In this document: positions 2,150 to 22,366 of the stretch, in pieces | Layout of the letters: the number at the start of each line of letters is the position of its first letter | How positions within the stretch are numbered: position 1 is the first letter of the stretch | Assembly (NCBI RefSeq): GCF_020711235.1 | Contig: NZ_JAJFAV010000002.1 | Coordinates: forward strand, 558,001-622,000 | Direction: 5' to 3' | Length of the DNA: 64,000 bases | Source of the DNA: Hymenobacter sp. 15J16-1T3B | GTDB taxonomy: Bacteria > Bacteroidota > Bacteroidia > Cytophagales > Hymenobacteraceae | Translations under genes and position numbers: made by a program | The notes under the pieces: model-generated | Seen by the model: only the letters and a program-made list of their open reading frames with translations | What the model was told of the DNA's origin: nothing | The model's database searches: none

Positions 2150-3304
2150 ATGGGCCTGCTCGATGACCTGCGCGCCGCCCGCCGGGCGGCCGGGCGGCGC
2201 CACCCGGCTCCCGGAGCCGGTGCTGCCGACGACACCCAGCCCGCGCTGCTGCTGATTCCGGACATCAGCGGCTTCACGCGCTTTATCGAAGAGGCCAACC
2301 ACCCGCAGGCCCCGCACTTGGTGGCCGACCTGCTGGAAATTCTCATCGAAGCCAACTGCCTGGAACTGGAAGTGGCCGAAATTCAGGGCGACGCCATTTT
2401 GTTTTACCGCCTGGGCGAGCCGCCGCCCGTAGCCGAACTGGTGCAGCAGTGCCGCCGCATCTTCCTCGATTTTCAGAACTACCTGCAGCTGGTCGCGCGC
2501 GACACGTCCTCCGAATTGGCCGCTGCTCTGCAGGAAGCCGGCCTCACGCTCAAAATCATCGGGCACTACGGGCGGGTGAGCGTGGCCGACATCCGCGAGT
2601 TTCGCAAGCTGCTTGGGCGCGACGTGATAGTGGCCCACCGCCTGCTCAAAAACACCGTGGCCGGCTCGGAGTACGTGCTGCTCACCGAGGGCTACCTCAG
2701 CACCCAGCAGCCCGCCGAAGTGGCCCGCTGCTTTGCCTGGACGCGCCTGCAGCGTAGCGCCACCGTCTACGAGTACCTCGGCGAAATCCGGTATTTCTAT
2801 GCCTACCTCACGCCGCTGCGCCTGCTGGTGCAGGCCGAAATCGACCAGGGCAAGCTGCCGGTGACCTGCCGGGTGCTGGCGCGGCACACCGTGGCCGCGC
2901 CGCTCGGCAAAGTGCTGCGCGTGGTGAGCAACCTGCGCCTGCGGCCCCGTTGGCTGGCCGGCACCACCGCCGTGCACTACGATGCCACCAAGGCCCACCG
3001 CCCCGGCGCCAACTACAAGCTGGACCTCTACGCGGGTCAGATCGATCTGCAGGTGGTGCAGCGGCTCGACCACGACGGCCACACCGAGTACGTGGAGAAA
3101 GTGGCCCATTGGCGCCTGTTTCCCAACGCCCTGCTCTTTTTCCGCCTCGAAGCCGTCGACGACCGGCACTGCCTCGTCACGATGGAGTTTCGCTACGGCC
3201 ACGTGGCCAGCGGGCACCGCCTCATCCGCAAAGGCCAGCTCCAGCGCCTGCACCGCTGGCTGGGCCAATCGGTGCGGCAACTGGCGGCGCTGTTTCAAGG
3301 GTGA
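2150..3304 (+). CDS. DUF2652 protein with class III cyclase-like N-terminus and SRPBCC-like C-terminus
   Basis: A 384-residue cytoplasmic protein of the DUF2652 family. Residues 32-190 resemble a class III nucleotide cyclase. LLIPDISGFTRF carries a metal-type Asp (D38), and EIQGDAILF carries the second Asp (D81), with Glu at 77 where cyclases select the base. GRDVIVAHRLL (156-166) corresponds to the VNxAxRL helix: Arg164 is kept, but the Asn that helps catalysis appears as Ile160. Residues from about 235 onward look like an SRPBCC/polyketide-cyclase-type ligand fold. Whether it makes a nucleotide is unknown; the cyclase likeness is my reading of motifs. The stop codon lies inside a GTGAAGTTGTGAA repeat. 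It converges on the HD-DUF5706 gene. Several internal ATGs exist, but 2150 gives the full domain. Confidence 0.85.
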   Translation: MGLLDDLRAARRAAGRRHPAPGAGAADDTQPALLLIPDISGFTRFIEEANHPQAPHLVADLLEILIEANCLELEVAEIQGDAILFYRLGEPPPVAELVQQCRRIFLDFQNYLQLVARDTSSELAAALQEAGLTLKIIGHYGRVSVADIREFRKLLGRDVIVAHRLLKNTVAGSEYVLLTEGYLSTQQPAEVARCFAWTRLQRSATVYEYLGEIRYFYAYLTPLRLLVQAEIDQGKLPVTCRVLARHTVAAPLGKVLRVVSNLRLRPRWLAGTTAVHYDATKAHRPGANYKLDLYAGQIDLQVVQRLDHDGHTEYVEKVAHWRLFPNALLFFRLEAVDDRHCLVTMEFRYGHVASGHRLIRKGQLQRLHRWLGQSVRQLAALFQG

Positions 3305-3379: not shown

Positions 3380-4603
3380 CTAAGCCTTGTACAGCAGGAC
3401 GATGATGAACGTCAGGGCCGTCAGGATGAGGCCGACCATGAAGATGGTGTAGCTCACGCGCAGCAGGCGGTACTTGCGCGACAACACTTCGCCGAGGTAG
3501 TAGATGTCGGTTATCATGTTGTTGTAGAGCAGTTCCCGGTTGCGCATCAGCTCGTGCATGCCGTCTTGGAAGTGGTCGAGGCTGAGCTTGGTGAAGTTGC
3601 CGAAGAACAGCAGGTTCACCCGGCGGTTGGTGGCAATCTGCGGGGAGCGGCGCAGCCACTTAAAAGCCGTCACGTCGGGCTGGGCCGAGAGAATGGCCGT
3701 CACCACCGAGCCCAGGGCCGTAGCCACCAGCAGGCCCATGGGCACGGCCAGCACCGGGTTTTTGGTGAAAGCCGGGCCCAGGGTGGAGGTTTTGGCGCCC
3801 AGGTAGGTGATGATGATGGAGAGCAGCACCGAGTTCAGGCTGATCATCATGTTGGCCTTCTGGTCGGCCATCTGCGAGAGGCGCTGGTGCTGGCTGTAGG
3901 TCGAGCGGAACATCGTCTCGACGCCGCGCTTGCCCTCGGCGAAGCCTTCGGCCTCCTCCTCTTTTTTCTTGGCTTTCTTCTCCTGTTTCTTCAGGGCCTT
4001 GCGCTGCTCCTTGATGTTGTCCTTGAGCTGGTCTTTGTAGCGCGCTTTGCCCGCGTCGCTCAGGTACTTGTGCTGCAGCAGAAAATCCAGCTGAAACTCG
4101 GCCCACTCGGGGTTGGAATACACTTTGCCCTGGGTGGCTTCCCACTCGGTGCGCAGCAGCTCGGCGTCGGCCAAGCAGTCCTCGCGGCCGAGGTTGCTCA
4201 TGTCCGCGTCCACCAGCAGCTTCTGCATCTCCGTGTCGCGCGGTTCGTCGCGGTGGGTGGCCCGGATTAGGTCCTTGATGAGGGCAATGCGCTCGGCGGG
4301 GTAGTTTTTCTCAGTAAGCCACTGCTCGGCCAGCTCCATGCTGCGGTACTCGTGGCCGTCGTAGCGCTCGATGTAGCCCGTGTCGTGAAACCAGGCGGCC
4401 AGCATCAGCGCCTCCTGGTCGGCCGCGTCGAGCTTGGCGGCCTGGCCCAGGGCGGCGGCCTCTTTGGCCACGGTGTTGGTATGCTTGAAGGAGTGGTACA
4501 CCAGCTGCCGGGGCAGCCGCTCGTCGAACAGTTGCTCGACGTAGGCTTTGGCTTGCTTGATGATTTCGGCCTTGGCCGGTTTCAGGGTCGGGGTAGGTTC
4601 CAT
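3380..4603 (-). CDS. HD domain protein with DUF5706 (PycTM-like) membrane domain
   Basis: A 407-residue two-domain protein. Residues 15-140 form an HD phosphohydrolase domain with all expected ligands: YHSFKHT (H37, H41), WFHDTGY (H73-D74), YDGHE (H84), ATHRDE (H117) and LVDADMSNL. A charged Lys/Glu linker, probably coiled coil, runs from about 205 to 225. Residues 228-407 match DUF5706, the family named for Pycsar effectors, with hydrophobic segments near 255-275, 290-312 and 382-405. In Pycsar defence a PycTM effector responds to cCMP or cUMP and damages the membrane. HD-fused versions are common in Bacteroidota and their role is not settled. An HD domain beside a nucleotide-sensing membrane domain suggests cyclic-nucleotide turnover plus response. 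It converges on a cyclase-like DUF2652 gene 75 bases away. Confidence 0.88.
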   Translation of the reverse strand: MEPTPTLKPAKAEIIKQAKAYVEQLFDERLPRQLVYHSFKHTNTVAKEAAALGQAAKLDAADQEALMLAAWFHDTGYIERYDGHEYRSMELAEQWLTEKNYPAERIALIKDLIRATHRDEPRDTEMQKLLVDADMSNLGREDCLADAELLRTEWEATQGKVYSNPEWAEFQLDFLLQHKYLSDAGKARYKDQLKDNIKEQRKALKKQEKKAKKKEEEAEGFAEGKRGVETMFRSTYSQHQRLSQMADQKANMMISLNSVLLSIIITYLGAKTSTLGPAFTKNPVLAVPMGLLVATALGSVVTAILSAQPDVTAFKWLRRSPQIATNRRVNLLFFGNFTKLSLDHFQDGMHELMRNRELLYNNMITDIYYLGEVLSRKYRLLRVSYTIFMVGLILTALTFIIVLLYKA

Positions 4604-4831
4604 TGAGAGAAGGGCGCAGGGCGGCGGCAGCGCCGCGCCAACGGCATTTCAACGCAAGTACGCCCGCCAGGTTTGGCCGCCCGCCACCAACCCCGTTACC
4701 GGGCGGTGCGTATCGGCGCCCAACGCCAAGCGGCCGGCCTGCGTATCGGGCAAGTGACGAGCCCGCCGCCCCTGGCGGCCGGCCCGCGCAGCCGCTCCTC
4801 TTACCGCACCTTCTCTCTCCAACTCTCGCTT

Positions 4832-7800
4832 ATGAGCCGACTTCTCCTGACTAGCTTTCTACTGCTGGTCGGCAGCCTCGGGCCGTGGCTTACGGCCCAC
4901 GCCCAGGGTACCAAAACCCAGACCGCTCACCCCGAACGCCCGAATTACCGCGGCATCGGCAAGGACTGGGAAAAAACCACCCCGCCCGACAGCTCCAAAC
5001 TCACCTACACCGTCTTCCTCATCGGCGACGTGGGCAAGCCCGCCCTGCCCGAAGCCGGCGGCGAGCCGTCGTTGAACTTCCTGCGCCGCCAGATCATGAA
5101 GGAAGGCGAGCGGAGCACCACCATCTACCTGGGCGACAACATCTACGAATACGGCCTGCCGCCCACCGGCGCCCTGGACCGCAAGGTGTCGGAGCAGCGC
5201 CTGATCGAGCAGATCAACGTGCTGCGCAACTACAAGGGCGAGAAGTACATGATTCCGGGCAACCACGACTGGAAGCAGGGCCAGAAAGGCTCCCTCGACC
5301 AGGTTATCCGGGCCCAGAACTTCATCGAGGACTACATGAACAAGGACTCGGCCGCCTTCACGCGCACCGGGGCCTTTTACGTGCCGGCCAACGGCTGCCC
5401 CGGGCCCTACGAAATCCTGGTGCAGGACAACCTGGCCATCATTGCCATCAACTCGCAGTGGTTTTTGCAGACCTCCGAGCGGCCCTACGGCGCCAACAGC
5501 GGCTGCGGCGTGGCCAACGAGGCCGACTTCTTCACCCAGCTAGAGGATTTGATGGCCAAGCACCGCAACAAGAACGTGGTGGTCATTGCTCACCACCCCA
5601 TCTTCTCCGACGGCATCCACGGCGGCTACTTCACCCTGGCCGACCACCTGTTCCCGCTCAGCATCGTCTACAAGTACGCCTTCATCCCGTTCCCGATTAT
5701 CGGCTCGGTGTACCCGTTTGCGCGCAAGTACGGCGGCATTTCGCAGGACATTCCGCACCCCTTGTACCAGCAGTACAAGAAGGGCCTGATGGATATTTTT
5801 GCCAAGTACCCGAACACCATCTACGCCGCTGGCCACGAGCATAACCTGCAGTACTTCAAAGTCGGCGACCTGCACCAGATTGTGTCGGGCTCGGGCTGCA
5901 AAACCCAGCACGTACGCACCGGCCGCGACGGCGACGCCCTCTTCTCCGACAAGGAAAAAGGCTGGGCCCGCGTGAACTACTACAACAACGGCGAGGTGTG
6001 GCTGGAGTACTGGATTCCGAACGACCGCGGCGAGTCGGGCCGCATCGTGTACCGGCAGGCGCTGTACGCCAAGCAGGCCGTGGCCGGCGACGCGCCCACC
6101 GGCCCCGACCCGTTCAACGTGGACATCAAAGGCCGCCCCAACTACAAGGACTCGACGGTGACCGTGGCCGTGAACCCGCGCTACGCCCAGCGCAGCGGCT
6201 TCCACCAGGCCCTGTTCGGCAAGCACTACCGCGCCGAGTGGGCCACGCCGGTGAAATTCCCGGTGCTCGACCTGGCCACCGAGAAGGGCGGCTTGGAACC
6301 GTATAAAATCGGCGGGGGCAAGCAGACGGCTTCGCTGAAAGTGCGCAACGAGGAAGGCCGCAACTACACCATCCGCGGGCTCGACAAGGACCCCTCGGCC
6401 GTGCTGCCGGAGGCCCTGCGTGAGTCGGCCGCCAAGGACATTCTGCAGGACCAGATTTCGGCCCAGCACCCGTACGGCTCCGTGGTGTTGCCGCCGCTGG
6501 CCTCGCGCGCCGGCATCCTGCACACCAACCCCGAGCTGCGCTACATCCCGCGCGACCCGCTGCTGGGCCAGTACCTGGCCCGCTTCCAAGATACGCCCGC
6601 CGCGCTGGAGGAAGACGCCAAGGACGACCAGAGCAACGTGGCCTCGCTGAACTTCGCCACCAACCTGGTGGGTACCGACCGCGTGCTGGAGCGCATGCGC
6701 CAAGACAACGACAACCACATCAAAGGCAAGGCCTTCGTCCGCTCGCGCCTGTTCGATATGTGGATTGGCGACTGGGACCGGCACGAGGACCAGTGGCGCT
6801 GGGCCGAGAGCAAGAACGAGGACGGTGACCGGACCTTCACGGCCGTGCCCGAAGACCGCGACATTGCCTTCTTCAAGGGCGACGGGTTCTTCCCCTGGCT
6901 GGCCCGCCGCAAGTGGGCCGTGCGCAACTTCCAGAACTTCGGTGAGGACTACGCCGACTGGAAAGGCTTGAACCTGACCGCCCTGAGCAACGACCGCGTG
7001 TTTTTGGGCGAAATGTCGCGCAAGGACTGGGTGGAAACCGCCGAGGACATGAAGCGCCGCCTCACCGACGCGGCCATCGACTCGGCCCTGCGCACGCGCT
7101 GGCCCGAACAGATCTACAAGCTGCACGGCGCCGAAATTGCCGCCAAGCTCAAGAGCCGCCGCGACCTGCTGCCCCAACTGGCCAACGACTACTTCGAGCT
7201 GCTCAGCGAAAAAGTGGAAGTGAAGGGCAGCGAAAAGCAGGAACGCTTCGTGGTGGAGCGCCTGCCCGACAACAAAACCCGCGTGCTGGTGAAGAAGGTC
7301 AACAAGGAGGGCAAAACCACCAAGACCCTCTGGGACCAGACCTACAACGGCGACATCACCAAAGAAATCCGTCTCTACGGCTTTGCCGGCAACGATTCGT
7401 ACCGCGTGCGCGGCTCGGAGCCCACCAGCATCCGCCTGCGCATCATCGGCGGCATCAACCGCGACACCATCGTGGACGAATCGACCAAGGGCGGCTCCTT
7501 CTTGCGGCCCCACTCGGTGCAGGTCTACGACGCGGATTCGGGCAATGTCATCGTGCCGGGCAAGGAAACCCGCCTGCGCCTGGCGCCGGGCAGCGAGGTG
7601 AGCGAGTACGACTACCCCTCGCGCACCAACAAGCGCGACTACAAGCTGCCCTACTTCGGCCCGGCCGTGTTCTTCGGCTACAACGTCGACGACGGCGTGT
7701 TCATCGGCGGCGGCGGCACGCTGCGCACCTACGGCTTCCGCCGCGAGCCGTTTGCCACCGAGCAGACGCTGGTGGCCAACTACGCCCCCTCGCGCCAGGC

Positions 7801-8755
7801 CTACAACGTGCGTTACACCGGCGTCTTCACCGACGTGCTCGGCAAGTACGACCTGCGCATCGACTCGCGCCTCTACGGCCCGCAGCTGCTCTACAACTAC
7901 TTCGGCGCCGGCAACGACACGCGCAACGTGGCCCAGGCCGACGGCACCGGCAACCCGCTCGGCAACCGCGCCATCAACGACACCTACCGCATCCGCTTCT
8001 CGCGCTTCAACTTTTCGCCCACGCTGGAAACCGACGTGTTCAGCTTCCTGAAGTTCGGCATCGGGCCGCAGTACGACCAGTGGCGCATCGACCGGGCCCA
8101 GATCGGCCGCGAAATCCAGGCCGGCATCGACAACGGCTTTACCGGCGCGGCCACCGGCATCCGCGAGTCGGACTTCGGCATGAACCGCTACCTCGGCGGC
8201 CGGGCCTACCTGAACCTCGACGCCAGTTCCTCGCCCATCAACCCGCGCATCGGTCTGCGCTGGTACAACTCGGCCGAGTATAACTCGCAGCTCAACGGCG
8301 AGAAGCTCAAGTACGGCCGTCTGTCGTCGGAAGTGCGTTTCTACGTCTCGCCCAACTTCCCCTTCCAGCTCACCTGGGCGGGCCGCATCGGGGCTGCCCG
8401 CAACATCGGCGACTACCGCTTTTACCAAGCCAACACGCTGGGCGGTACCACCAACCTGCGCGGCTACCGCCGCACCCGCTACGCCGGCCGCAGCATGACC
8501 TACGCCAACGCCGAGGTGCGCGTGCAGCTTTTCACCTTCAACGCCTACCTGGTGCCCGGCAAGTTCGGCATCATGGGCCTGGCCGATGCCGGCCGCGTGT
8601 ACAGCAGCTACGACATCGAGAAAGGCTTCGACGCCTACCACACCGGCCTGGGCGGTGGCATCTGGATCGACGTGCTCAAGCAGGCCGTCATCAACGCTAC
8701 CTACTCGGTGGGGGAGGAGAGCTTGGTCAACGTCGGGTTCGACTTCCTGTTCTAG
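4832..8755 (+). CDS. Secreted metallophosphoesterase / kinase-like / BamA-type beta-barrel fusion
   Basis: A 1307-residue envelope protein. Residues 1-25 are a signal peptide. Residues 55-400 are a calcineurin-like phosphoesterase with every metal motif: LIGDVG (D66), GDNIYE (101), GNHDW (143), AHHP (about 252) and GHEH (about 333). From about 560 to 690 lies a region with GDWDRHEDQW (about 645) and, 27 residues on, DRDIAF. This resembles the catalytic and metal-binding loops of HipA/Fam20-type atypical kinases; that link is inference. From about 940 to the end is an Omp85/surface-antigen barrel with the LRGYRRTRY motif near 1207 and a terminal beta strand ending in F. It is probably an outer-membrane protein with soluble domains in the periplasm or at the surface. 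ATG 4832 is chosen because the signal peptide starts there; the frame extends back to 4673 without features. A terminator follows at 8782. Confidence 0.88.
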   Translation: MSRLLLTSFLLLVGSLGPWLTAHAQGTKTQTAHPERPNYRGIGKDWEKTTPPDSSKLTYTVFLIGDVGKPALPEAGGEPSLNFLRRQIMKEGERSTTIYLGDNIYEYGLPPTGALDRKVSEQRLIEQINVLRNYKGEKYMIPGNHDWKQGQKGSLDQVIRAQNFIEDYMNKDSAAFTRTGAFYVPANGCPGPYEILVQDNLAIIAINSQWFLQTSERPYGANSGCGVANEADFFTQLEDLMAKHRNKNVVVIAHHPIFSDGIHGGYFTLADHLFPLSIVYKYAFIPFPIIGSVYPFARKYGGISQDIPHPLYQQYKKGLMDIFAKYPNTIYAAGHEHNLQYFKVGDLHQIVSGSGCKTQHVRTGRDGDALFSDKEKGWARVNYYNNGEVWLEYWIPNDRGESGRIVYRQALYAKQAVAGDAPTGPDPFNVDIKGRPNYKDSTVTVAVNPRYAQRSGFHQALFGKHYRAEWATPVKFPVLDLATEKGGLEPYKIGGGKQTASLKVRNEEGRNYTIRGLDKDPSAVLPEALRESAAKDILQDQISAQHPYGSVVLPPLASRAGILHTNPELRYIPRDPLLGQYLARFQDTPAALEEDAKDDQSNVASLNFATNLVGTDRVLERMRQDNDNHIKGKAFVRSRLFDMWIGDWDRHEDQWRWAESKNEDGDRTFTAVPEDRDIAFFKGDGFFPWLARRKWAVRNFQNFGEDYADWKGLNLTALSNDRVFLGEMSRKDWVETAEDMKRRLTDAAIDSALRTRWPEQIYKLHGAEIAAKLKSRRDLLPQLANDYFELLSEKVEVKGSEKQERFVVERLPDNKTRVLVKKVNKEGKTTKTLWDQTYNGDITKEIRLYGFAGNDSYRVRGSEPTSIRLRIIGGINRDTIVDESTKGGSFLRPHSVQVYDADSGNVIVPGKETRLRLAPGSEVSEYDYPSRTNKRDYKLPYFGPAVFFGYNVDDGVFIGGGGTLRTYGFRREPFATEQTLVANYAPSRQAYNVRYTGVFTDVLGKYDLRIDSRLYGPQLLYNYFGAGNDTRNVAQADGTGNPLGNRAINDTYRIRFSRFNFSPTLETDVFSFLKFGIGPQYDQWRIDRAQIGREIQAGIDNGFTGAATGIRESDFGMNRYLGGRAYLNLDASSSPINPRIGLRWYNSAEYNSQLNGEKLKYGRLSSEVRFYVSPNFPFQLTWAGRIGAARNIGDYRFYQANTLGGTTNLRGYRRTRYAGRSMTYANAEVRVQLFTFNAYLVPGKFGIMGLADAGRVYSSYDIEKGFDAYHTGLGGGIWIDVLKQAVINATYSVGEESLVNVGFDFLF

Positions 8756-8818: not shown

Positions 8819-9340
8819 TGCGGAATGAGCAGGCTGAACGTGCTCTGCTGCTGACTGGTCGAAATGATTTAATGGCATCGTCAATTTGGGAAAGGGTACT
8901 TACAAAGCGACGGATTTTACTTTGTATATAAAAAATATTATATTTTTAGCTTAGGCAATCCGATCAGTTTTTTGCTTCGTACGTAAGCAATTTGAGTTAT
9001 TTGTATTAGAATTATTTCGATATAATTTGTATTTATAAAGCATAAAAACCTGCTGGATAGAGGTTTTGAGTAATTATCTTTGCCTGCCCAGTCAGGTGAG
9101 AACTGTCGGATTTATAGGAAGCTGCGCTGCGCAATAACCAGCAGTATAGAAAAATTCCCATTTAGGGAAGCGCACGTGTGGGCCTGCTACCGTTCAGCGA
9201 GAGGACCGAGTTATCCAGCCAGCAAAACCTGCTGTTGACCGAAAACCGCCAGACTCTGCCTGGGGCTCCAAATAGTTTTGTTGCTCCAAAGCTGTGAGAA
9301 CAAGCTTTTAAGCGCTTTTCCATCCATCAATCATACCTTC
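8819..9340 (+). promoter_or_regulatory. AT-rich leader of the giant surface-protein gene
   Basis: About 520 bases without a credible gene. The stretch from roughly 8870 to 9080 is strikingly AT-rich (runs such as TATATAAAAAATATTATATTTT near 8930) against a GC-rich background. A Bacteroidota-type -7 element TATCTTTG lies at 9075-9082, but no good -33 TTG stands 19 bases before it. That site would give a 5' leader of about 250 nt before ATG 9341. I see no small ORF or recognisable riboswitch in it. Confidence 0.5.
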
Positions 9341-12300
9341 ATGAGAACAACCTTACGAGTAGCATTTCTGCTGCTGGGTTGGGTACTTTTAGCGACTGGG
9401 GCTTGGGCGCAACCTGCCCCCAAAGACCAGTCGGCGCAGATACTCAATCCCAACAGCGGCCGCGTGACGTTGGGTCTGCCCTTGGCAGTTAGCTCCGGGA
9501 CGGTTACCTCCTACACCATCACCGGGCCCCTGCCCACCGCGGCGCAAGGCACGCTGTGGGTGAACGGGACCCAGGTAACGGCGGTACCGCGCACCGTAGC
9601 ACTAGCCGATGCCGGTAGCATCCAATTCAACCCGGCAACCACCTTTTTTGGCACGTACTTTTTCAAGTACACCGCCACGGGTACCGGCGGCACCAGCACC
9701 GCGGCTTCGTACGGCATTTCCGTGGCGAAAACGGCCTGCAATGTTACTTCCCCGCTGAACCTGTTCGACCGCGCCAACGAAAGCTGGCAGGGGCCGACGT
9801 ATCCCAGCATCACCGTTGGCGGAACGACCCTCACGGCTTCCGCCTTCACCCAGGCCACCAGCGCGAACGGCACCACGTCGCTCAGCGTTACCGACGACCT
9901 GACGATGCCCGGCAAGGCCCTGACCTGGTCGGCTGACTACAGCTCCGAAAGCACCACCGCCAATGCCTCTAGCATTACGCTGACCTTCAGCCGGCCGGTT
10001 AAGAACTTCTCCATGACGGTGGGCGACTTGGACGTCGGCTCCATCACCACCACCAACGGCTGGATTGACCAGCTCACGGTGAATGGCTACTCCACCACCG
10101 CTGCCACGACCCCCATCACGCTCACCAGCTCCGACTACGCCTTGGGCCCGAACGGGGACAACGTGTACAGCGGCAGCAACGTGTTTACCGGCACCGGGGA
10201 AAACGCCGCCACCAGCGACGACCTGGCCGGCGCCAACCTGATCATTACGTTTTCGCAGGCGGTTCAAAAAGTAGTACTGACGTACCGCAACACGACCACC
10301 GCAGCCAGCGGCAACGACCCGTCCAAGCAGGTGCTGACCATTCCGGCCATGAGCTGGTGCGCCGAGGCAGACGTGGTGACCACGCTGGCGGGGCCGGCCT
10401 CGCTGACGGCGGGCCAGGCGTCGGGCAACTACACCGTGACCTTCGACAACAACGGCCCGGACGATGCCTCGTCCGTGACGCGTACGGTGACGATTCCGGC
10501 CAACGTGGCTTCGGCGGTGACGCCGGTAAGCGGCGGCACGGTATCCGGCTCGCAAGCCGCGGGCTGGACGATTACCTACCCCGGCGGAACGATTCTTGCC
10601 AGCGCCGCGGCTTCCTCCTACACCTTCAACCTGACGCCGCTGCCCAACGTGAGCAGCATTACGGTCAGCAGCGCAACGTCGACCACGACCGACCAAGGAG
10701 CCAACACCGGAGCCGATGCGGCTTCGGTGGCGCTGAACGTTACGCAGATTGCGGACGTGACCACGACCCTGACGGGCCCGGGCAGCCTTTCGGCCGGCCT
10801 GCAGTCGGGCGACTACACGGCTACCTACACCAACAACGGCCCCTCGACGGCGGCCAGCACCACGCGCACGGTAACCATTCCGGCCAACACGGTTTCGGCC
10901 GTGTCGGCGCCCAGCGCCACGTCGGTGTCGGGCAGCCAGGCCACGGGCTGGACCATCACCTTCCCGGCCGGCAGCAACGTAGCGGCCGGCGCCAGCGGCG
11001 CGGTGAGCTACACCTTCAAGGTAACGCCCGGCCTGCTAACCAGCGGCACCAGCATCAACATCACCAGCGCCACCAGCACCACCACCAGCGAAGGCACCAA
11101 CACCGCGCCCAACACCTCGGCGGTGAGCTACACGGTGGGCGCCGTGGCCGACGTGACCACGACCCTGACGGGCCCCGGTAGCCTCTTGGCCGGCGTGGTA
11201 TCCGGCAACTACACGGCTACCTACACCAACAACGGCCCCTCTACGGCGGCCAGCACCACGCGCACGGTGACGATTCCGGCCAACACGGTTTCGGCCGTGT
11301 CGGCGCCCAGCGCCACGTCGGTGTCGGGCAGCCAGGCCACGGGCTGGACCATCACCTTCCCGGCCGGCAGCAACGTGGTTTCGGGTAACTCCGTGAGCTA
11401 CAACTTTACCCTGACGCCGCTGGCCGTAACCAGTGTATCGGCGAGCAGCGCCACGAGCACCACGACCAGCCAGGGCCTGAACACGGCCGCTGACGCTTCG
11501 ACGGTAACGCTGAACGTGACGCCGATTGCCGACGTGTACGCGCAGTTTACGACGCCCGCCACGACGTCGACCACGGCTACGGCCGGCACCACCGTCAACT
11601 ACACGGTGCAGTTTGGCAACAACGGGCCGTCGTCGGCCGACGGCGTAACCCGCGTGGTAACCGTGCCGGCCGGCGTGCCGAGCGTATCGGCCACGGGCGC
11701 TACGGTCACTGGCTCGCAAGCCGCGGGCTGGACGATTACCTACCCCGGCGGCACGTTTGCCACCGGCACCTCGGCGAGCTACAACTTCAGCATCGTGGCC
11801 CCGGCCAGCGGCTCGCCCCAGCTGACGGCGTTGACCACGACCACGACCAGCCAGAACGGCGCGACCAGCAACGATTCGCAGACGCGGACGCTGAACGTGA
11901 CGCCCATCGTGCTGAGCGGTAACATCTTCGACGACGTGAACTACGGCGGCGGCGCCGGCCGCGACTACGCCACGGCCAACTCGGCGGCTACGGCCTCGGG
12001 CTTCGCCAGCGGCGCCATCCTGCGCCCCAACGCCACCGTGGAACTCTACGACGCCAGCGGCAACTACGTGGCCTCGACCACCAGCAACGCCTCGGGCCAG
12101 TACTCCTTCAACGTGCCGGCGGCGGCGACTTACACGGTGCGCGTGGTGAACGGCACGGTGACGCCCGCTCGTACCCTGAACTCGGGCTTCACGGCTGCCA
12201 ACACCTCGGCCGTGCAGACCTTCGTGAACGGCGACGTGAACCGCGTGGGCGGCGAAAACCCGACCCGCATCGACGCCGGCGCCAACACGACCTCGGCCAC

Positions 12301-15300
12301 CCTGACCTCGCTGACGGCGGGCTCGGGTGCTACGGCTACCACGGCGCAATCCATCAAAGCGGTGACCGTGCCGGCCGCTGGCCTGACGGGCATTGACTTC
12401 GGCTTCAACTTCGACGTCGTGGTTAACACCAACGACGCCGGGCAAGGCTCGCTGCGCCAGTTCATCCAGAACAGCAACGCCCTGGCCAACACCAGCCTGG
12501 CCCAAGCCGGCCTGACGGCGGGCGTGGAAACCAGCCTCTTCATGATTTCGGACGGCGCGGTCCACAACGGCCTGCGCAGCGGCCTGACCAACCAACTGAC
12601 CAACGGCGCGGCCACCATCACCCTGAGCACGGCGCTGACCACCATCACCGACGCCAGCACCGCGCTGAACGGCACGACGCAAACCAGCAACGTGAGCGAC
12701 TCCAACGCCGCCGTTACGACGACCGGCAGCGAGTCGACCGGGCCGGAAGTGGTTATCAACTTCGGCGGCACCGACGGCTTCGCCACGACCGGCGCCAGCA
12801 CCCGCGTCATCAGCCTGGGCTTCACCAACGCCAACACGAGCGGTGGTTCGGGCACGGCGGCGCTGCGCGTCGATGCCGGCGCTACCAACGCCATCATTCA
12901 GAACAACACGTTCTACGCGAACGGGGCCAACTTCCGCCTCAACAACGTGGGCGGGGCCACCGTGACCGGCAACATCTCGCGCAACGCCCTGGCCAGTAAC
13001 TCGGATGGTATTGAGATGACGGCTTCGTCGAACAACACCATCACCGGCAACCAGTTCCTGAACAACGCCGGCTACGGCATCGACTTCATCAGCGGCCAGA
13101 GCAACGGCAACACCATTACGGGCAACGTGTTTGCCCGCAACGGCCAAAGCTCCAGCAACGGCCAGACGGCCGGCATCGGCCTGCGCGACGGCAGCTCGAA
13201 CAACAACATCTCGGGCAACACCTTTACCGGCAACATCGGCGACGGTATTTCGGCCAACAACGGCAGCAACAACGTTTTCTCGCAAAACAGCTTCTCGGCC
13301 AACGGCAACCTGGGCATCGACCTGACGACGACTACCAACAACGACGGGGACGGCGTGACGCTGAATGACTCGGGCGACGCGGACGCCAACACGGCCGCCG
13401 CCAACGGCCTGATCAACTTCCCGATCATCAGCTCCTCGACCATCCGCAACGGCAACCTGATTGTGGAAGGCTTTGCCCGCCCGGGCGTGACGGTGGAGTT
13501 GTACGTGGCGGACCCCGACGCTACCGGCTTCGGCGAAGGCCAAACCTACTTCACCACCTTCGTGGAGGGCTCGTCGGCCGACACCAATACCGGCACCGGC
13601 ACCTACTCGGGCCTGATCAACGGCCGCAACCAAGGCACCGACAACACGAACCGCTTCACGGTGAGCATCGCGCTGTCGTCGCTTTCCTCGGCCCTGCGCA
13701 CGGCCCTGACGACCTCGGGTGCCCAGCTGACGGCCCTGAGCACGCTGAGCACGAACACCGGCGGCAACTACGGCACCTCGGAATTCTCGGGCAACTCGCC
13801 GGTGCTCAGCGCCCCGGTGGCCACTAACGACGCGGCCGTGACGGCTCCCGCCACGCCCGTGACGCTGACGGTGACCAGCAACGACCTGAACAGCATCGAC
13901 GCGGCCACGGTGGCCCTGAACGGCCTAGCGGCCGGCAGCACCACGGCCGTAGCCGTGACGGGCGGTACGTTCCAGTTCCTGAGCAACGGCCAGGTGCAGT
14001 TCACGCCGACGGCGGGCTTCACCGGCATTGCCACGGTGCCCTACACGGTGAACAACACCTCGGGCGTGTCGTCCAACACCGCGTTCATCTCGGTGGAAGT
14101 GCGTACGCCCAGCATCGACCTCTCGACCACGATTTCGGCCCCGGCCAACAACACGGCCATTAACGCCGGCGCCGCCCTGACCTACACGGTGGTGGCTACC
14201 AACGGCACCGCCACGGCGGCCAGCACGGTGGTGGAAACCCTGCAGCTGCCGGCCGGCCTGACGACCAACGGCGGCACCGTGACCATCACGGGCGGGCAGA
14301 ACTTCGCCGCGGCCAGCTACGACAACACGACCGGCGTGGTGACCATTCCGGTGGGTACGCTGGCGGCTAGCTCCTCGCAGACCTACAACGTGGCCGTATC
14401 GGCCATGCCCGGCACCGGCCCGGTAACGGCTACGGCCACCATCAGCGGCGCCGTGACGGAAACCAACACGGCCAACAACTCGGTGGCCACGACGGTGACC
14501 ATCAACCCGCGCTACGACGTGGCCACAACCATCACGGGCCCGGCCACGGGCGTGGTGCGCGGCAACGAAATCACCTACACGGTGACGACCAGCAACCTGA
14601 GCACCACCGCGGGCTCGGCGTCGCCGGCGGCCAACGTGGTGCAGGTGGTGCAGCTGACGACCGGCCTGACGGGCGTCTTCGCCTCGAACGGCGGCACCTA
14701 CAACTCGAACGACGGCAAAGTGACCTTCCCGGCCATCAGCTCGCTGCCGGTGGGCCAGACGGTGGTCAACAGCATCAGCTTCGCGGCTCCGGCGGCCAAC
14801 TTCACCGTGCCTTCGGCCACGGTAACGGCCGGCGCCAGCAGCGACAACGCCGGTGACCTGAACTCGCCCTCGGTGGGCACGAACAACAACACGGCCTACC
14901 TGAACGGCCTGGGCAGCACGGCCACGGTGGCCACCAGCGCCCCGAGCGCCTCGCAGGTAAACGTGTACACCAGCATCAGCAGCTCGGCTACCAACGTGGC
15001 CCCGAATACCTCGGTGACGCTGACCGTGACGGCCAACAACGCCGGCCCGGCCACGGCTACCGCGGTGACGGAAACCCTGCAACTGCCGGCCGGCCTGGCG
15101 GGCGTGACGGTGAGCAACGGCGGCACCTACAACGCCACCACCGGCCTGGTGACCTTCACCTCGTTTGGCGACCTGGCCCCGGCCGGTAGCGCCTCGGCCA
15201 CGGTGACCTTCACGGCGCCGGCCCAAGGCTTCGTGCTGGCCTCGGCCACGGTGATGACGGCGGCCACCGACCTGGTGCCGGCCGACAACCTGGCCCAGAT

Positions 15301-18097: not shown

Positions 18098-18126
18098 GGT
18101 GGATGGAACCCGCGAACGGCAAAACG

Positions 18127-18157
18127 GCCGCTGCTCCGAAAGGGGCAGCGGCTTTTT
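18127..18157 (+). terminator. Rho-independent terminator after the giant surface-protein gene
   Basis: An 11-bp stem, GCCGCTGCTCC with GGGGCAGCGGC (one G-U), with a GAAA loop and TTTTT directly after. It lies 30 bases past the stop codon at 18097. Confidence 0.9.
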
Positions 18158-18263
18158 GTTGGCGCCTGATTTACATCACCGCGGCCGGTGTAGCCTTTTC
18201 GGCGCGTTTGCGTTTAGACCAGCACCGTTCCCGGTTGTCTTACCCTTTGTCGCACTCGCCCCA

Positions 18264-19424
18264 ATGAATACTACTACCCCGTCGCTCACGTGGCGCCTTG
18301 GCTTGAGCTTTTCCCTGCTGTTGCTGGGCTTTTCGGTCGCGCAGGCCCAGGACCAGCCCCCGCGCAAAGGCGGGGAGCCGGTGCGCACACCGGTGTACCC
18401 GCCCCCCGCCCCGCTGTCGACCGACACGGCCCGCACCGACCAGGTCGGGCAGAGCCAGGAGTTTGCCGTGCCCTCGGTGCTGGGCAGCGGCCCGAGCAAG
18501 GGCGTGGTGGCCCACTACGAGCGGCTCGGCAACTTTTCCATCAACTCCAAGCTGCGCGACCGGGAGCCCGAAGGCCGGGCCAGCACCAACGTCACCAAGA
18601 ATGCGCGGGCCTACATCAAGGCGTACGCGCCGTTGATCAACCACCCGCACCTGAAGATGATTCTCGGCCTGAACTACGACCGGGAGGAGTTCAACTTCAA
18701 GAGCCCGGAGGGCAGCACGTTCTACCGCAACCTAGAAGAGAAGGGGCTGAAGGTCATCGGGGCGCAGTTGGCTGTCATCCGACCCGTGGACCAGGTGCAC
18801 TGGTACATTGCCCGCATCAAGGGCGAGCTGAACGGCGACTACACCTCCAGCGAGCTGGACGTGCACGACTACCTGAAGATGTCGGGCGAGTTTATCTACG
18901 GCTGGAAACGCTCCCCCAACTTTGCCTGGGGCATCGGCGGGCAGCTGGGCTACACCTTCGGGCGGCAGAGCATTTACCCGGTCATCCTTTACAACCGCAC
19001 GTTTAACCCGCGCTGGGGCGTGGAGGCGCTGTTTCCGGCCCGCGTGTCGTTCCGCTACAACGCCACCCGCAGCACCCTGCTTTTCGCCGGCTACACCGTC
19101 GACGGCTACAACTACAACATCAAGCTGCGCGAACCGCTGCAGAACGGGCAACAAACCCTCATCCTGCGCGAAACCGAGCTCAAGCCGCGGGTACGCCTGG
19201 AGCGGGAGATTTACGATTTCCTCTGGTTCGGGCTGGAGGCCGGCTACCGCTACAACGTGTCCTTCAACGCCCTCGACGAAGCCAACAACAAAGGCCTAGG
19301 CCTGCTGCGCAAGAGCCCGCGCCCGCTGCTGCTCGACAACACCCTGGGTGGCGCCCCCTACGCCGCCTTCGAACTGTTTCTGGTGCCTCCGCGCAAGTTC
19401 CTGAACAAAACCGCCAGCAAATAA
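18264..19424 (+). CDS. DUF6268-like outer membrane beta-barrel protein
   Basis: A 386-residue protein. Residues 1-29 are a signal peptide (LSFSLLLLGFSVAQAQ). After a Pro-rich lead (about 30-65) the rest alternates aromatic and polar residues in short strands typical of outer-membrane barrels, for example FSINSKLRDRE, LKMILGLNYDREEFNF and YGWKRSPNFAWGIGGQLGYTF. The pattern matches DUF6268 proteins of Bacteroidota, which are predicted barrels of unknown role. No catalytic motif is seen. ATG 18264 fits the signal peptide; the longer frame from 18099 covers the upstream terminator. It stands alone between the giant gene's terminator and a convergent polyphosphate kinase. Confidence 0.78.
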   Translation: MNTTTPSLTWRLGLSFSLLLLGFSVAQAQDQPPRKGGEPVRTPVYPPPAPLSTDTARTDQVGQSQEFAVPSVLGSGPSKGVVAHYERLGNFSINSKLRDREPEGRASTNVTKNARAYIKAYAPLINHPHLKMILGLNYDREEFNFKSPEGSTFYRNLEEKGLKVIGAQLAVIRPVDQVHWYIARIKGELNGDYTSSELDVHDYLKMSGEFIYGWKRSPNFAWGIGGQLGYTFGRQSIYPVILYNRTFNPRWGVEALFPARVSFRYNATRSTLLFAGYTVDGYNYNIKLREPLQNGQQTLILRETELKPRVRLEREIYDFLWFGLEAGYRYNVSFNALDEANNKGLGLLRKSPRPLLLDNTLGGAPYAAFELFLVPPRKFLNKTASK

Positions 19425-19684: not shown

Positions 19685-21778
19685 CTACTTGCGGCGCTTT
19701 TTGCGCAGGTACTCGTAGGTGGCCTGCTGGGCCCGCACGGGCTTTTCCTCGGCGCCGTCGCGCAGGTACTGGTTTTGCCAGTCGCGCGACTTTTGGTTGT
19801 CCTGGCGCTGCAGATCGAGCAGGTGGCGCACCTCGCGGCGCACGTCGGGGTCGTAGAGGGGAAAGGCCACTTCCACGCGCCGGTCGAGGTTGCGCGACAT
19901 CCAGTCGGCCGAGGCCACGTAGATGCGCTCCTGCCCGCCGTTGCCGAACACGTACACCCGGGCGTGCTCCAGGTAGCGGTCGACAAGGCCGCGCTGCTGA
20001 ATGTTTTCGCTCTGACCCGCTGCGCCCGGTATCAGGCACGATATGCCGCGAATGAGCAGCTCCACCCGCACGCCGGCCTGGCTGGCCTCGTAAAGCTTGC
20101 GGATCATGCCCTCGTCCTGCAGCGCGTTCAGCTTCAAGATGATGTAGGCCTCCTGGCCCGCGCGGGCGTGCTCGATTTCCACGTCGATGAGATGATTCAG
20201 GCGCTGGCGCAGCTCGAACGGCGCCACCAGCAGGTGCCCGAAGGGCGCGGGCGTTTCGCGGGAGCGGAAGAAGTCGAAGATGCGGGCCACCTCGGTGGTC
20301 AGCCGCTCGTCGGCCGTGAAGAGGCCGTGGTCGGCGTACACGTGGGAGGTGTCCTCGTTGAAGTTGCCGGTGCTCAGGTAGGCGTAGTGCCGCGGGGCGC
20401 CGTCCTCCTGCCGCGTGATGAGCAGCAGCTTGGCGTGCACCTTCAGCTCGGGCACCCCGTAGATGACCACCGCGCCGGCGCGCTCCAATTTTTCGGCCCA
20501 GCGGATGTTGGATTCCTCGTCGAAGCGGGCTTTTAGCTCCACCACCACGGTCACGCGCTTGCCGTTTTTGGCGGCTTTCAGCAAGGCTTTGGCCACCTCG
20601 CTTTTGCCGGCCACGCGGTAGAGCGTGATGCTCACCTCGGTTACGGCCGGGTCCTTGGCCGCCTCTTTGATCAGGCGCGTGACGTAGTCGAACGACTGGT
20701 AGGGGTAGTGGATGAGGTGGTCGTGCTGGGCCACGGCGGCCAGCAAGCTCTCTTCCTTGGCGCGCGGCAGCGAGGGATGGGGCAGGGCGTTTTGCGGCGG
20801 GTACTGCAGCTCCTTGAGCCCGAAGCCCGGAAAGCCGAAAAAGTCGCGGAAGTTGTGGTAGCGGCTGCCTTCCACCAGTTCGTCCTTGCCGATACCGGTT
20901 TTCTGCATCACGGCCCGCAGCGCCGGCTTGGGCATGGTCGGGTCGTAGAGCAGGCGCGCGGGGTAGCCGGTTTCGCGCTTTTGCAGGCTGCTCTTGATTT
21001 TGGCCAGCAGGTTGCCCGACACCTCTTCCTGGATGTCCAACTCCGCGTCGCGCGACATCTTGATGCTGCTCACTTCCACCGTCTGGTACTTCGGAAACAG
21101 CTCGTGGGCGCAGCAGCGCACCACGTCGTCGAGAAACATCACGTAGTGCTCCGCGCCTTGGTCGGGCAATTGCACGAACCGGCCGCCGTGGCGCTTGGTG
21201 GGCAGCTCCAGTACCAGCACGCGCTCCTCGTCCGCGTCCTTTTTGCCCTTCACGTGCCCGGTCAGGTACACCACCAGGTAGGTGACCTGGTCTTTAAGGA
21301 ACAGGTGGTGCAGGTTGTCGTCGAGCACGATGGGGGAGAGCAAATCCTGCACCCGGGCGCGGAAATACTCCTGCACCCACTGCCGCTGCTCGGCGCTCAG
21401 GTCGTGCTCCGTGACGAGGTGAATGTGCTGGCGGTGCAGCTCGGGCAGGATCTGGTTGCGAAACGTGTCGCCGAATACCTCCTGTTGCCGGCCCACTTCG
21501 GCCAGCACCTGCTGCAGCTGCTCGGCCGGGTCGTCGCCGAGCTTTGCGCGGGTTTTGCGCTTGAGGTTCTGCAGGCGGCGCAGCGTGGCCACGCGCACTT
21601 TGAAATACTCGTCGAGGTTGGAGGAAAAAATGGCCAGAAACTTTAGGCGCTCCAGCAAAGGTACCTCGGGGTTCTGGGCCTCCTGCAGTACGCGGGCGTT
21701 GAAGGTGAGCCAGCTTTGCTCGCGGTTAAGCAGCGTCGGCTCGGCGGACGGCGGCGGTGTGGGGGCGTCGTGCGGCAT
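19685..21778 (-). CDS. ppk1: Polyphosphate kinase 1
   Basis: A 697-residue protein of the usual length for PPK1, which polymerises the terminal phosphate of ATP into polyphosphate through a phosphohistidine. The N-terminal domain opens with LLNREQSWLTFNARVLQEA and FSSNLDEYFKVRV. The catalytic core has VSITLYRVAGKSEVAKALL, the phosphorylated-His region LKVHAKLLLITR and YAYLSTGNFNEDT. The C-terminus includes GISCLIPG and ADWMSRNLDRRVEV. All hallmark blocks are present. It lies 90 bases downstream of sixA on the same strand and may share its transcript. The product would be cytosolic or membrane-peripheral and serve phosphate storage and stress responses. Confidence 0.97.
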   Translation of the reverse strand: MPHDAPTPPPSAEPTLLNREQSWLTFNARVLQEAQNPEVPLLERLKFLAIFSSNLDEYFKVRVATLRRLQNLKRKTRAKLGDDPAEQLQQVLAEVGRQQEVFGDTFRNQILPELHRQHIHLVTEHDLSAEQRQWVQEYFRARVQDLLSPIVLDDNLHHLFLKDQVTYLVVYLTGHVKGKKDADEERVLVLELPTKRHGGRFVQLPDQGAEHYVMFLDDVVRCCAHELFPKYQTVEVSSIKMSRDAELDIQEEVSGNLLAKIKSSLQKRETGYPARLLYDPTMPKPALRAVMQKTGIGKDELVEGSRYHNFRDFFGFPGFGLKELQYPPQNALPHPSLPRAKEESLLAAVAQHDHLIHYPYQSFDYVTRLIKEAAKDPAVTEVSITLYRVAGKSEVAKALLKAAKNGKRVTVVVELKARFDEESNIRWAEKLERAGAVVIYGVPELKVHAKLLLITRQEDGAPRHYAYLSTGNFNEDTSHVYADHGLFTADERLTTEVARIFDFFRSRETPAPFGHLLVAPFELRQRLNHLIDVEIEHARAGQEAYIILKLNALQDEGMIRKLYEASQAGVRVELLIRGISCLIPGAAGQSENIQQRGLVDRYLEHARVYVFGNGGQERIYVASADWMSRNLDRRVEVAFPLYDPDVRREVRHLLDLQRQDNQKSRDWQNQYLRDGAEEKPVRAQQATYEYLRKKRRK

Positions 21779-21868: not shown

Positions 21869-22366
21869 TTACTCTTCGTGGTTTTTCGGCGAGTCCACGA
21901 AGTACAGTTCGGCGTTGCTGCGCTGGACGTCGGCCCACCGGTCGGTCTGGAAGTGCAGGCACACCACGGCGGCCGTGGCCATTTCGTGCACGGCGCTCGG
22001 CGAGAGGTAATTCACCGCGTCGGTCATGGTGGGGTTGTGGCCCACCAGCAGTACGCTGCCGGCCTCTTCGGGCAGCTCGTGCACCACACCGACCAAGCGG
22101 TCCAGGTCGGCTTCGTAGATGGCGTCGAGTACCTGAATGCCTTCGGGTGGGTAGTTCAGCTCCTTGGCCACCAGGGCGGCGGTGCTCAGGGCCCGCACGG
22201 CCGGGCTGCTCACCAGCAAATCCAGCTGAATATTGCGCTCGGCCAGGGCCTGGCCCATTTGGGGGGCGTCGGCGCGGCCGCGGTTGTTGAGGGGGCGTTC
22301 TTTGTCGCTGAGCCCGTCGAAGTTCCAGCTCGACTTGGCGTGGCGCATCAGGTACAGGATTTTCAT
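21869..22366 (-). CDS. sixA: Phosphohistidine phosphatase SixA family
   Basis: A 165-residue single-domain histidine phosphatase. The catalytic RH pair is at residues 8-9 (LYLMRHAKSSW) and the second conserved His at about 110 (VLLVGHNPTMTD). LVSSPAVRALSTA carries the phosphate-pocket Arg. SixA proteins dephosphorylate phosphohistidines, classically in phosphotransfer proteins. Whether that holds here is not shown, and a small-molecule phosphatase is possible. It precedes ppk1, whose enzyme uses a phosphohistidine intermediate, so a link to polyphosphate metabolism is tempting but unproven. Confidence 0.9.
   Translation of the reverse strand: MKILYLMRHAKSSWNFDGLSDKERPLNNRGRADAPQMGQALAERNIQLDLLVSSPAVRALSTAALVAKELNYPPEGIQVLDAIYEADLDRLVGVVHELPEEAGSVLLVGHNPTMTDAVNYLSPSAVHEMATAAVVCLHFQTDRWADVQRSNAELYFVDSPKNHEE

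Follow-up and report, generated by a model that had tools for sequence, protein, structure and literature searches.

A predicted atypical-kinase domain joined to a phosphoesterase and an Omp85 barrel, encoded beside HD-PycTM and polyphosphate kinase genes in Bacteroidota

Architecture of the MKB protein

We analysed a 64,000-nucleotide window of the genome of Hymenobacter sp. 15J16-1T3B (contig NZ_JAJFAV010000002.1, positions 558,001 to 622,000; coordinates below are those of the window). The open reading frame (ORF) at 4832-8755 on the forward strand encodes a protein of 1307 amino acids in which a metallophosphoesterase (M), a middle domain (K) and a 16-strand Omp85 barrel (B) follow one another, and it is the K domain, whose predicted fold resembles that of atypical kinases, that is our main subject. 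The frame is uninterrupted from the ATG at 4832 to the stop codon at 8755; the mechanical ORF call begins upstream, at a TTG at 4673. Its features are as follows:

4832..8755, + strand: MKB gene, comprising signal peptide, metallophosphoesterase, predicted kinase-fold domain, beta-rich stretch and Omp85 barrel (profiles and models)
4832..4903, + strand: Sec-type signal peptide, residues 1-24, ending AHA (by eye from the sequence)
5009..5896, + strand: calcineurin-like phosphoesterase M, residues 60-355 (PF00149 over 60-272 and the motif series)
6149..7210, + strand: K, predicted kinase-fold domain, residues 440-793 (AlphaFold2 model of residues 425-982; VIA-align ranges up to model residues 16-369)
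6311..6328, + strand: putative Gly-rich loop GGGKQT, residues 494-499, lying between N-lobe strands 1 and 2 (DSSP of the model)
6374..6388, + strand: R515 to K519, closing the third N-lobe strand (strand order; R515 at the place of the ATP-binding Lys of kinases)
6767..6796, + strand: putative catalytic loop GDWDRHEDQW, residues 646-655 (conservation and CotH profile alignment)
6854..6862, + strand: putative metal loop DRD, residues 675-677 (conservation; aligned to CotH PYDYD)
7211..7651, + strand: beta-rich stretch between K and the barrel, residues 794-940 (DSSP of the models)
7652..8752, + strand: Omp85 16-strand barrel, residues 941-1307, with LRGY at 1209-1212 (model and structure matches)

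M has the marks of a calcineurin-like metallophosphoesterase in both profile and metal ligands: PF00149 matched residues 60-272 with an E-value of 9.6e-7, which exceeds the Pfam cut-off, the motifs GDVG, GDNIY, GNHD, AHHP and GHEH (the last at residues 334-337) occur in this order, and all seven presumed metal ligands (D66, D102, N144, H145, H254, H335 and H337) are present. The full ligand set was found in 67 of 85 aligned rows, the window protein counted, while six frames were clipped at the start and 12 had lost ligands, among them L002, a paralogue in the same genome (L, G, C and f are our own handles for loci, genomes, contigs and families). Judging from these alignments, M is less conserved than K. 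Signal-like N-termini were noted in 83 of 92 homologue ORFs by a heuristic scan.

The AlphaFold2 model of residues 793-1307 (predicted local distance difference test score, pLDDT, 87.5) shows a barrel of 16 strands that starts at residue 941, and it matched BamA/TamA-type chains at Z 22.4-25.4 among the 50 entries listed by VIA-align, with a best Foldseek E-value of 3.5e-10. The protein thus has the 16 strands and the L6 RG(F/Y) motif of Omp85 proteins, the latter being LRGY, which we take to be the L6 motif; the NCBIfam model Omp85_fam matched residues 1135-1307 (E 4.4e-23) with 82.4 bits, below its cut-off of 200. The stretch 794-940 was hardly covered by the VIA-align matches of either model, and Pfam and NCBIfam profiles found no POTRA in the protein. 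A first-pass annotation, made from the sequence alone, had already recognised a complete calcineurin-like phosphoesterase before K and a BamA-type barrel behind it, and both identifications hold, the phosphoesterase motifs being complete to GHEH. It had put the region between them at about 130 residues, which proved far too short, as K alone takes up about 350 residues (440-793) and is followed by the beta-rich stretch.

Predicted fold, active site and copies of the K domain

K was modelled with AlphaFold2 over residues 425-982 (558 residues) from 76 sequences and without templates, giving a pLDDT of 92.4 and a predicted template-modelling (TM) score of 0.92. All 50 entries listed by VIA-align for this model were atypical kinases, with Z-scores of 10.5-15.0 against a stated background, for queries without a clear match, of best Z 7-8 (14 if mostly helical; the K model is mixed). 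The highest scores were those of PI4KIIbeta (4wtv; Z 15.0, root-mean-square deviation 4.6 over 261 aligned residues, about 8-10% identity) and PI4KIIalpha (Z 15.0), followed by Bacillus cereus CotH (5jd9; Z 14.8, deviation 4.1, 255 aligned), CtkA (13.8), HipA (11.2), PI3K-type kinases (about 11) and the Golgi casein kinase 4kqb (10.8), which we take to be Fam20. A search of viral structures had as its top match (E 3.6e-8) a phage PI3/4-kinase-like protein, which is again the same fold and taught us nothing about function. On the predicted structure, K has the bilobal kinase fold of the PKL superfamily, and we are close to certain, as far as a model allows, that it has the fold of the PI4KII/CotH/HipA/Fam20 group.

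Sequence searches against Pfam, NCBIfam and the PDB did not recognise K. The window protein had no Pfam match to PF08757 (E-values up to 1), HipA_C (PF07804) or PI3_PI4_kinase. Taken together, 76 homologues matched 40 Pfam families, and PF08757 is not among the 25 of these that were shown; a match to STI1-HOP (E 0.22) and scattered Pfam matches of homologues were taken as noise. A PHROGs search, with the whole protein as its only query, met just the phosphoesterase. An hhalign profile comparison of K with CotH, represented by 24 of the 25 proteins fetched from the phylum, gave P 6.6e-5 (Prob 64) and aligned GDWDRH of K with GNWD of CotH and PEDRD with PYDYD, and 21 unrelated families among 22 neighbour families used as controls gave P 0.08-0.78. 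A published account of CotH (PMC7821199) describes its residues D228 and D251 as required for activity, and these would sit in the two loops aligned with K.

Of 395 phylum genomes sampled, 146, spread over 75 of 171 genera, gave a match to K in a profile search; the genome of Hymenobacter sp. 15J16-1T3B itself carries five copies. The 125 ORFs of the first loci comprise 84 MKB, 25 KB and 16 K proteins without a barrel, a count that includes one antisense artefact, a broken frame and some duplicates (L001 and L086, for example, are both the window gene). The broken frame, L067:5899-8484, is a KB frame interrupted by a stop codon between K and the barrel. Of 12 barrel-less K proteins with a signal-like start, nine close it with a lipoprotein-like Cys by eye; a script pattern flagged four.

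Our map of the active site draws on the order of the strands and on conservation rather than on coordinates. G494, G495 and Q498 of the Gly-rich loop are conserved among homologues, and D540 was placed by the model's DSSP assignment in the helix after strand beta3. Across 123 homologue rows, R515, K519, D642, D647, W655, D675 and D677 were each present in all 123, H651 in 122, Q654 in 118 and D649, the presumed catalytic Asp, in 116; Q654 stands five residues further on, where kinases have the catalytic-loop Asn. With D647, W655, D675 and D677 in every row and H651 in all but one over homologous domains, the K motifs are not due to chance. Because the 123-row set was partly found by patterns holding the tested motifs (the best 80 of 579 were kept, and duplicates remain), a cleaner figure comes from 64 homologues found without motif selection by a profile built from five paralogues: the set R515/K519/D649/H651/Q654/D675/D677 was complete in 61 of them. 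The three exceptions were L002, the second MKB of the same genome (G649 and N654), and two KB proteins, each from a different tandem pair. Five of 88 motif-found rows depart: four come from Pontibacter, each being the second member of a K-alone pair and having S649 and N654, and the fifth is a KB protein with G649. D649 and Q654 are both altered in six of the eight departing rows (four of these are the related Pontibacter copies and one is degenerate throughout). The departures found lie mostly in duplicated copies. As to the catalytic and metal-binding Asp residues expected of the PKL superfamily, D649 and D675 are, by sequence, conserved and aligned with the CotH loops.

We inspected eight adjacent K pairs (L037, L047, L055, L081, L141, L146, L159 and L003/L005 of the Hymenobacter genome itself; at least two further pairs, at G072:C27 and G166:C1, lie outside this survey), and seven of them consist of one intact copy and one with a degenerate catalytic loop, L141 having two intact ones. 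Where the two copies of a locus are separated by a few kb (L039, L040, L072, L080), no motif departure was seen. In the Hymenobacter pair, found at locus L118 (G000:C33), the barrel-less L003 and L005 adjoin in opposite directions; L005 is intact and L003 has S649 and R651. L003 is not among the 64 profile-found rows, because an antisense ORF displaced it.

The first-pass annotation had singled out GDWDRHEDQW and DRDIAF as loops of a HipA/Fam20-type kinase. Both motifs are there, at residues 646-655 and 675-680, with D649 and D675 spaced by 26 residues instead of the 27 stated, and the proposed likeness is borne out by the predicted fold and the conserved acidic loops. It had set two checks beforehand: comparison of a K model with solved structures, which gave atypical kinases in all 50 listed matches and not an unrelated fold, and conservation of DWDRH and DRD, the residue set being intact in 61 of the 64 profile-found homologues. 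Its idea of one protein joining a phosphatase and a kinase-like domain applies to the MKB form only, as many relatives have no M and the M ligands are lost in 12 of 85 rows.

Genes around K

The genes that accompany MKB in the window are:

2150..3304, + strand: DUF2652 protein (Pfam)
3380..4603, - strand: HD-PycTM, an HD phosphohydrolase with a PycTM transmembrane domain, divergent from MKB (PF18967, E 1.9e-30; PF01966, E 8.3e-6)
18099..19424, + strand: DUF6268 protein (Pfam)
19685..21778, - strand: polyphosphate kinase 1 (PPK1), 697 amino acids (TIGR03705, E 6.9e-227, and Pfam)
21869..22366, - strand: SixA-like histidine phosphatase adjoining PPK1 (PF00300; TIGR00249 at 68.7 bits, below its 74.5 cut-off)

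Their order is DUF2652, HD-PycTM, MKB, a long repetitive ORF, DUF6268, PPK1 and SixA-like. The repetitive ORF (9278-18097, 2939 residues, surface-type by eye), which separates MKB from the DUF6268-PPK1-SixA block, looks inserted, since the flanking genes lie close together in related Hymenobacter loci such as L006. Beyond the SixA-like gene, and adjoining it, 22535-24247 encodes an M43 metallopeptidase with a GEVED domain and a type IX secretion tail.

Clustering of neighbouring ORFs over 80 loci, with clusters named by Pfam on one or two members each, gave HD-PycTM in 43 loci, PPK1 in 24, an SdiA-regulated beta-propeller lipoprotein in 22, a DUF6268 relative after MKB in 15 (Hymenobacter, Rufibacter, Pontibacter), the SixA-like protein in 15 and, judged by eye, a DUF2652-like neighbour in nine. 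These counts are lower bounds, because long antisense ORFs displace real genes in GC-rich genomes; PPK1 was missed in this way at L116, as was the degenerate L003 at L118.

Linkage was then expressed as gene distance, for which both genes had to lie on one contig, and chance values assume genomes of 4.3 Mb and ignore kinship. Among the 58 K-positive genomes of 60 chosen regions, PycTM (PF18967) lies within 15 kb of K in 47, corresponding to 46 of 55 genera and 20 of 23 families, where about 0.6 pairs are expected; an SdiA-regulated gene does so in 28 and PPK1 in 18. As some of the 60 regions had been shifted to include PPK1 (G261, G140, G286, G345), we took the PPK1 counts from family searches, made over these 58 genomes and over a list of 150 K matches in 124 of the 146 positive genomes, weaker matches falling outside it. 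PPK1 (PF13090) was within 15 kb of K in 42 of the 124 genomes, 23 of 62 genera and 10 of 24 families, against about 1.5 genomes expected. With forms labelled by frame length alone, linkage was found for 15 of 42 KB matches (all 15 within 5 kb), 32 of 98 MKB and 0 of 9 K-alone matches. Hymenobacter sp. 15J16-1T3B has two PPK1 genes, and each has an MKB gene on its contig, 12.2 kb away in the window and 2.8 kb away in the case of the paralogue.

PycTM is not only near K but co-occurs with it: it was present in 56 of 58 K-positive versus 7 of 50 K-negative genomes (20 listed negative and 30 absent from the positive rows, taken in list order, not at random), and in 35 of 37 versus 7 of 33 within the nine families holding both kinds. 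All seven K-negative carriers belong to f2, f3, f8 and f24, the K-negative genomes of f4, f5, f7, f17 and f18 having none (0/21). Exactly one PycTM occurs in 46 of the 58 genomes, and in four (G005, G066, G087, G152) it lies away from K but beside PPK1. The gene order varies. HD-PycTM is divergent from MKB in L119, L162 and this window, for example, and follows MKB in L124, L147 and L151; HD-PycTM, PPK1, SdiA and (M)KB share one strand in L160, L163, L167 and L175; and SdiA-KB converges with PPK1-SixA-HD-PycTM in L145, L146, L148, L158 and L161. That proximity is kept despite changing gene order speaks for selection.

Some neighbours were seen in particular lineages. A CotH-type gene lies near KB in the f17 loci L145 (this member confirmed by Pfam), L148, L154 and L161, bringing two kinase-fold envelope genes together. 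As a polyphosphate parallel, CotH beside VTC was considered and set aside as weak, 3 of 17 VTC matches lying no more than about 6 kb from a CotH match. In 20 of 60 loci a member of a family of about 800 residues (for example L160:16108-18504) occurs near K, and the one member searched had no Pfam, NCBIfam or PADLOC match. In the f24 loci L128, L134, L136 and L138, a class III cyclase with TPR directly follows MKB and precedes HD-PycTM where the latter is present.

Proposed role and relation to known systems

We lean towards reading the K protein as an extracytoplasmic, outer-membrane-anchored phosphotransferase of CotH/PI4KII type within a polyphosphate-linked envelope system. The parts of this proposal carry different weight. 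The K protein and HD-PycTM very likely form a functional system; K is probably a catalytically competent phosphotransferase; and polyphosphate may perhaps serve as donor, substrate or signal, a point we make tentatively. The MKB protein would be exported by Sec, and M and K would face the periplasm, as Omp85 N-termini do. The donor would lie under the Gly-rich loop, gripped by R515 and K519, with D649 acting as catalytic Asp together with Q654 and D675 (with D677) binding metal. K would put phosphate on an envelope substrate, and M could remove it from the same substrate or from the donor. HD-PycTM, the near-constant partner, would reside in the inner membrane, PPK1 makes polyphosphate, and the SdiA-regulated beta-propeller lipoprotein, whose gene often adjoins that of K, would be part of the suggested setting. 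Since ATP is not expected in the periplasm, polyphosphate or its product would be the first donor candidate. Starting from the computed results, namely K's predicted fold and conserved acidic site, the Omp85 barrel and the gene linkage, we infer with falling strength phosphate transfer by K, periplasmic N-terminal domains, M opposing K, and polyphosphate as donor or substrate. In its boldest form, as a conserved trans-envelope system of the phylum in which PPK1-made polyphosphate instead of ATP feeds an outer-membrane CotH/PI4KII-like kinase, with HD-PycTM as partner in the inner membrane and the phosphoesterase as eraser, the proposal seems rather doubtful.

Several observations weigh against this proposal. 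Foldseek results for K were weaker and mixed, with HipA on top (E 3e-4) followed by RIO2 and JAK2 pseudokinase domains; TM-scores were modest (0.27-0.33) and stayed below 0.4, with kinase folds throughout the visible rows. Sequence support for CotH is thin, as half-sets of the CotH proteins gave P 1.9e-4 and 0.018, and the 22nd control family, a four-member CotH cluster (P 0.012), adds no support because it aligned over a different stretch of 33 columns. A HipA profile failed to align with K (hhalign P 0.18), and kinship with HipA by profile comparison was rejected on that value. Within the presumed active site, Arg stands, by strand order, where the beta3 Lys would be in every one of the 123 rows, and the residue in place of the catalytic-loop Asn is Gln in most rows and Asn in rare ones. 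Lys-to-Arg replacement at beta3 inactivates many ordinary kinases, and the two substitutions would be the strongest point against an ordinary kinase. The Hymenobacter genome itself keeps L002, altered at D649 and Q654 and with lost M ligands, and L003, altered at D649 and H651. PPK1 was not seen within 15 kb of K in 82 of 124 genomes (partly drafts in many contigs), nor in any listed member of the large family f7, nor for any of the nine K-alone genes, and its mere presence is uninformative, as it was found in 362 of 395 genomes. The missing linkage in two thirds of the genomes is the strongest point against the polyphosphate idea; PycTM, by comparison, is nearly constant.

The invariant Arg for Lys and the Gln for Asn would also suit a non-catalytic kinase-fold receptor, in which K, on binding nucleotide or polyphosphate, would switch the phosphoesterase, the barrel or HD-PycTM and transfer no phosphate itself, and the same can be said of the persistence of copies without D649 whose site is otherwise mostly intact and of the seven intact/degenerate pairs among eight. 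A pure receptor, however, would not need the catalytic- and metal-loop residues that all but three of the 64 profile-found domains have in full, and we consider this explanation unlikely. Kinase-fold enzymes with adenylylation-type or other chemistry exist, and systematic replacements in the presumed donor site, together with PPK1 linkage, might be taken to mean that K carries out adenylylation (as SelO does), polyphosphate hydrolysis or transfer between polyphosphate chains. Such chemistry left no direct sign, though, and CotH, the sole family with a profile alignment to K, is an ATP-using Ser/Thr kinase according to PMC7821199, so that we rate it as distinctly improbable.

Two further explanations start from the barrel and from the neighbour. 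An Omp85 assembly or secretion factor of TamA or two-partner type, with K and M replacing POTRA and the neighbours incidental, would agree with the barrel's LRGY and its BamA/TamA matches at Z 22-25, but K exists without a barrel, nine of 12 such proteins having the lipoprotein-like Cys, and the linkage far exceeds chance; this makes it very improbable. Equally improbable is a Pycsar-like anti-phage locus made up of a PycTM effector and a nucleotide cyclase, to which the K protein would be accessory. PF18967 and PADLOC PycTM models do match the neighbour, and class III cyclases lie near K in some lineages, both of the two searched matching PycC models; yet PycTM occurs exactly once in 46 of 58 genomes and near K in 20 of 23 families, it is fused to an HD domain, the cyclase cluster is found in a minority of loci (13/80 and 7/60), and neither the DUF2652 nor the MKB protein has a PADLOC match. 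As the Pycsar link is by domain name and a cyclase is near only in some loci, we do not file the locus as defence.

If the polyphosphate-linked phosphotransferase is real, the cell envelope would be phosphorylated with no need for ATP outside the cell. To our knowledge, few kinase-fold enzymes are found outside the bacterial cytoplasm, and such enzymes raise the question of where their phosphate donor comes from; this locus asks whether polyphosphate can drive phosphorylation there. The linkage also points to a function to be sought in the PycTM family, which we know only as a defence effector. No description of the K domain, its architecture or its locus turned up among the papers listed by our literature searches (without preprints and most subscription journals). 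K forms a family of its own, new within an established fold group.

Among known systems, CotH (PF08757) shares with K its fold, a location outside the cytoplasm and a profile alignment over both acidic loops, whereas the K protein differs in its Omp85 barrel and phosphoesterase, its DWDRHxxQ and DRD motifs, the Arg at beta3, other partners and the lack of a PF08757 match. PI4KII is the top structural match (Z 15.0), and its DRG and DNG loops resemble DRH and DRD of K, but identity is about 8-10%, there is no PI3_PI4_kinase or PDB sequence match, and K is bacterial with a signal peptide. HipA, HipT and CtkA resemble K in fold (Z 13.8 for CtkA and 11.2 for HipA, the best Foldseek match), and we take the HipA-type DxHxxN spacing to match D649-x-H651-x-x-Q654; HipA, unlike K, acts in the cytosol in toxin-antitoxin pairs, and K has neither a HipA_C match nor an alignment with the HipA profile. 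Fam20C has the fold (4kqb, Z 10.8) and works outside the cytosol, and the intact/degenerate K pairs recall kinase/pseudokinase pairs such as Fam20C/Fam20A; it is eukaryotic, however, without barrel or phosphoesterase and without a sequence match. BamA and TamA share the 16-strand barrel (Z 22-25) and LRGY, and differ from the window protein, which has no POTRA by profile and carries a predicted kinase-fold domain and a phosphoesterase in front. Pycsar PycTM effectors have the PF18967 domain of the neighbour at 3380-4603, which instead is HD-fused, mostly single in its genome and located beside K, sometimes PPK1, rather than PycC. Since the CotH and HipA profiles do not match, K belongs under neither name, and its fold by itself does not justify assigning it to PI4KII; its mode of action may well be like theirs.

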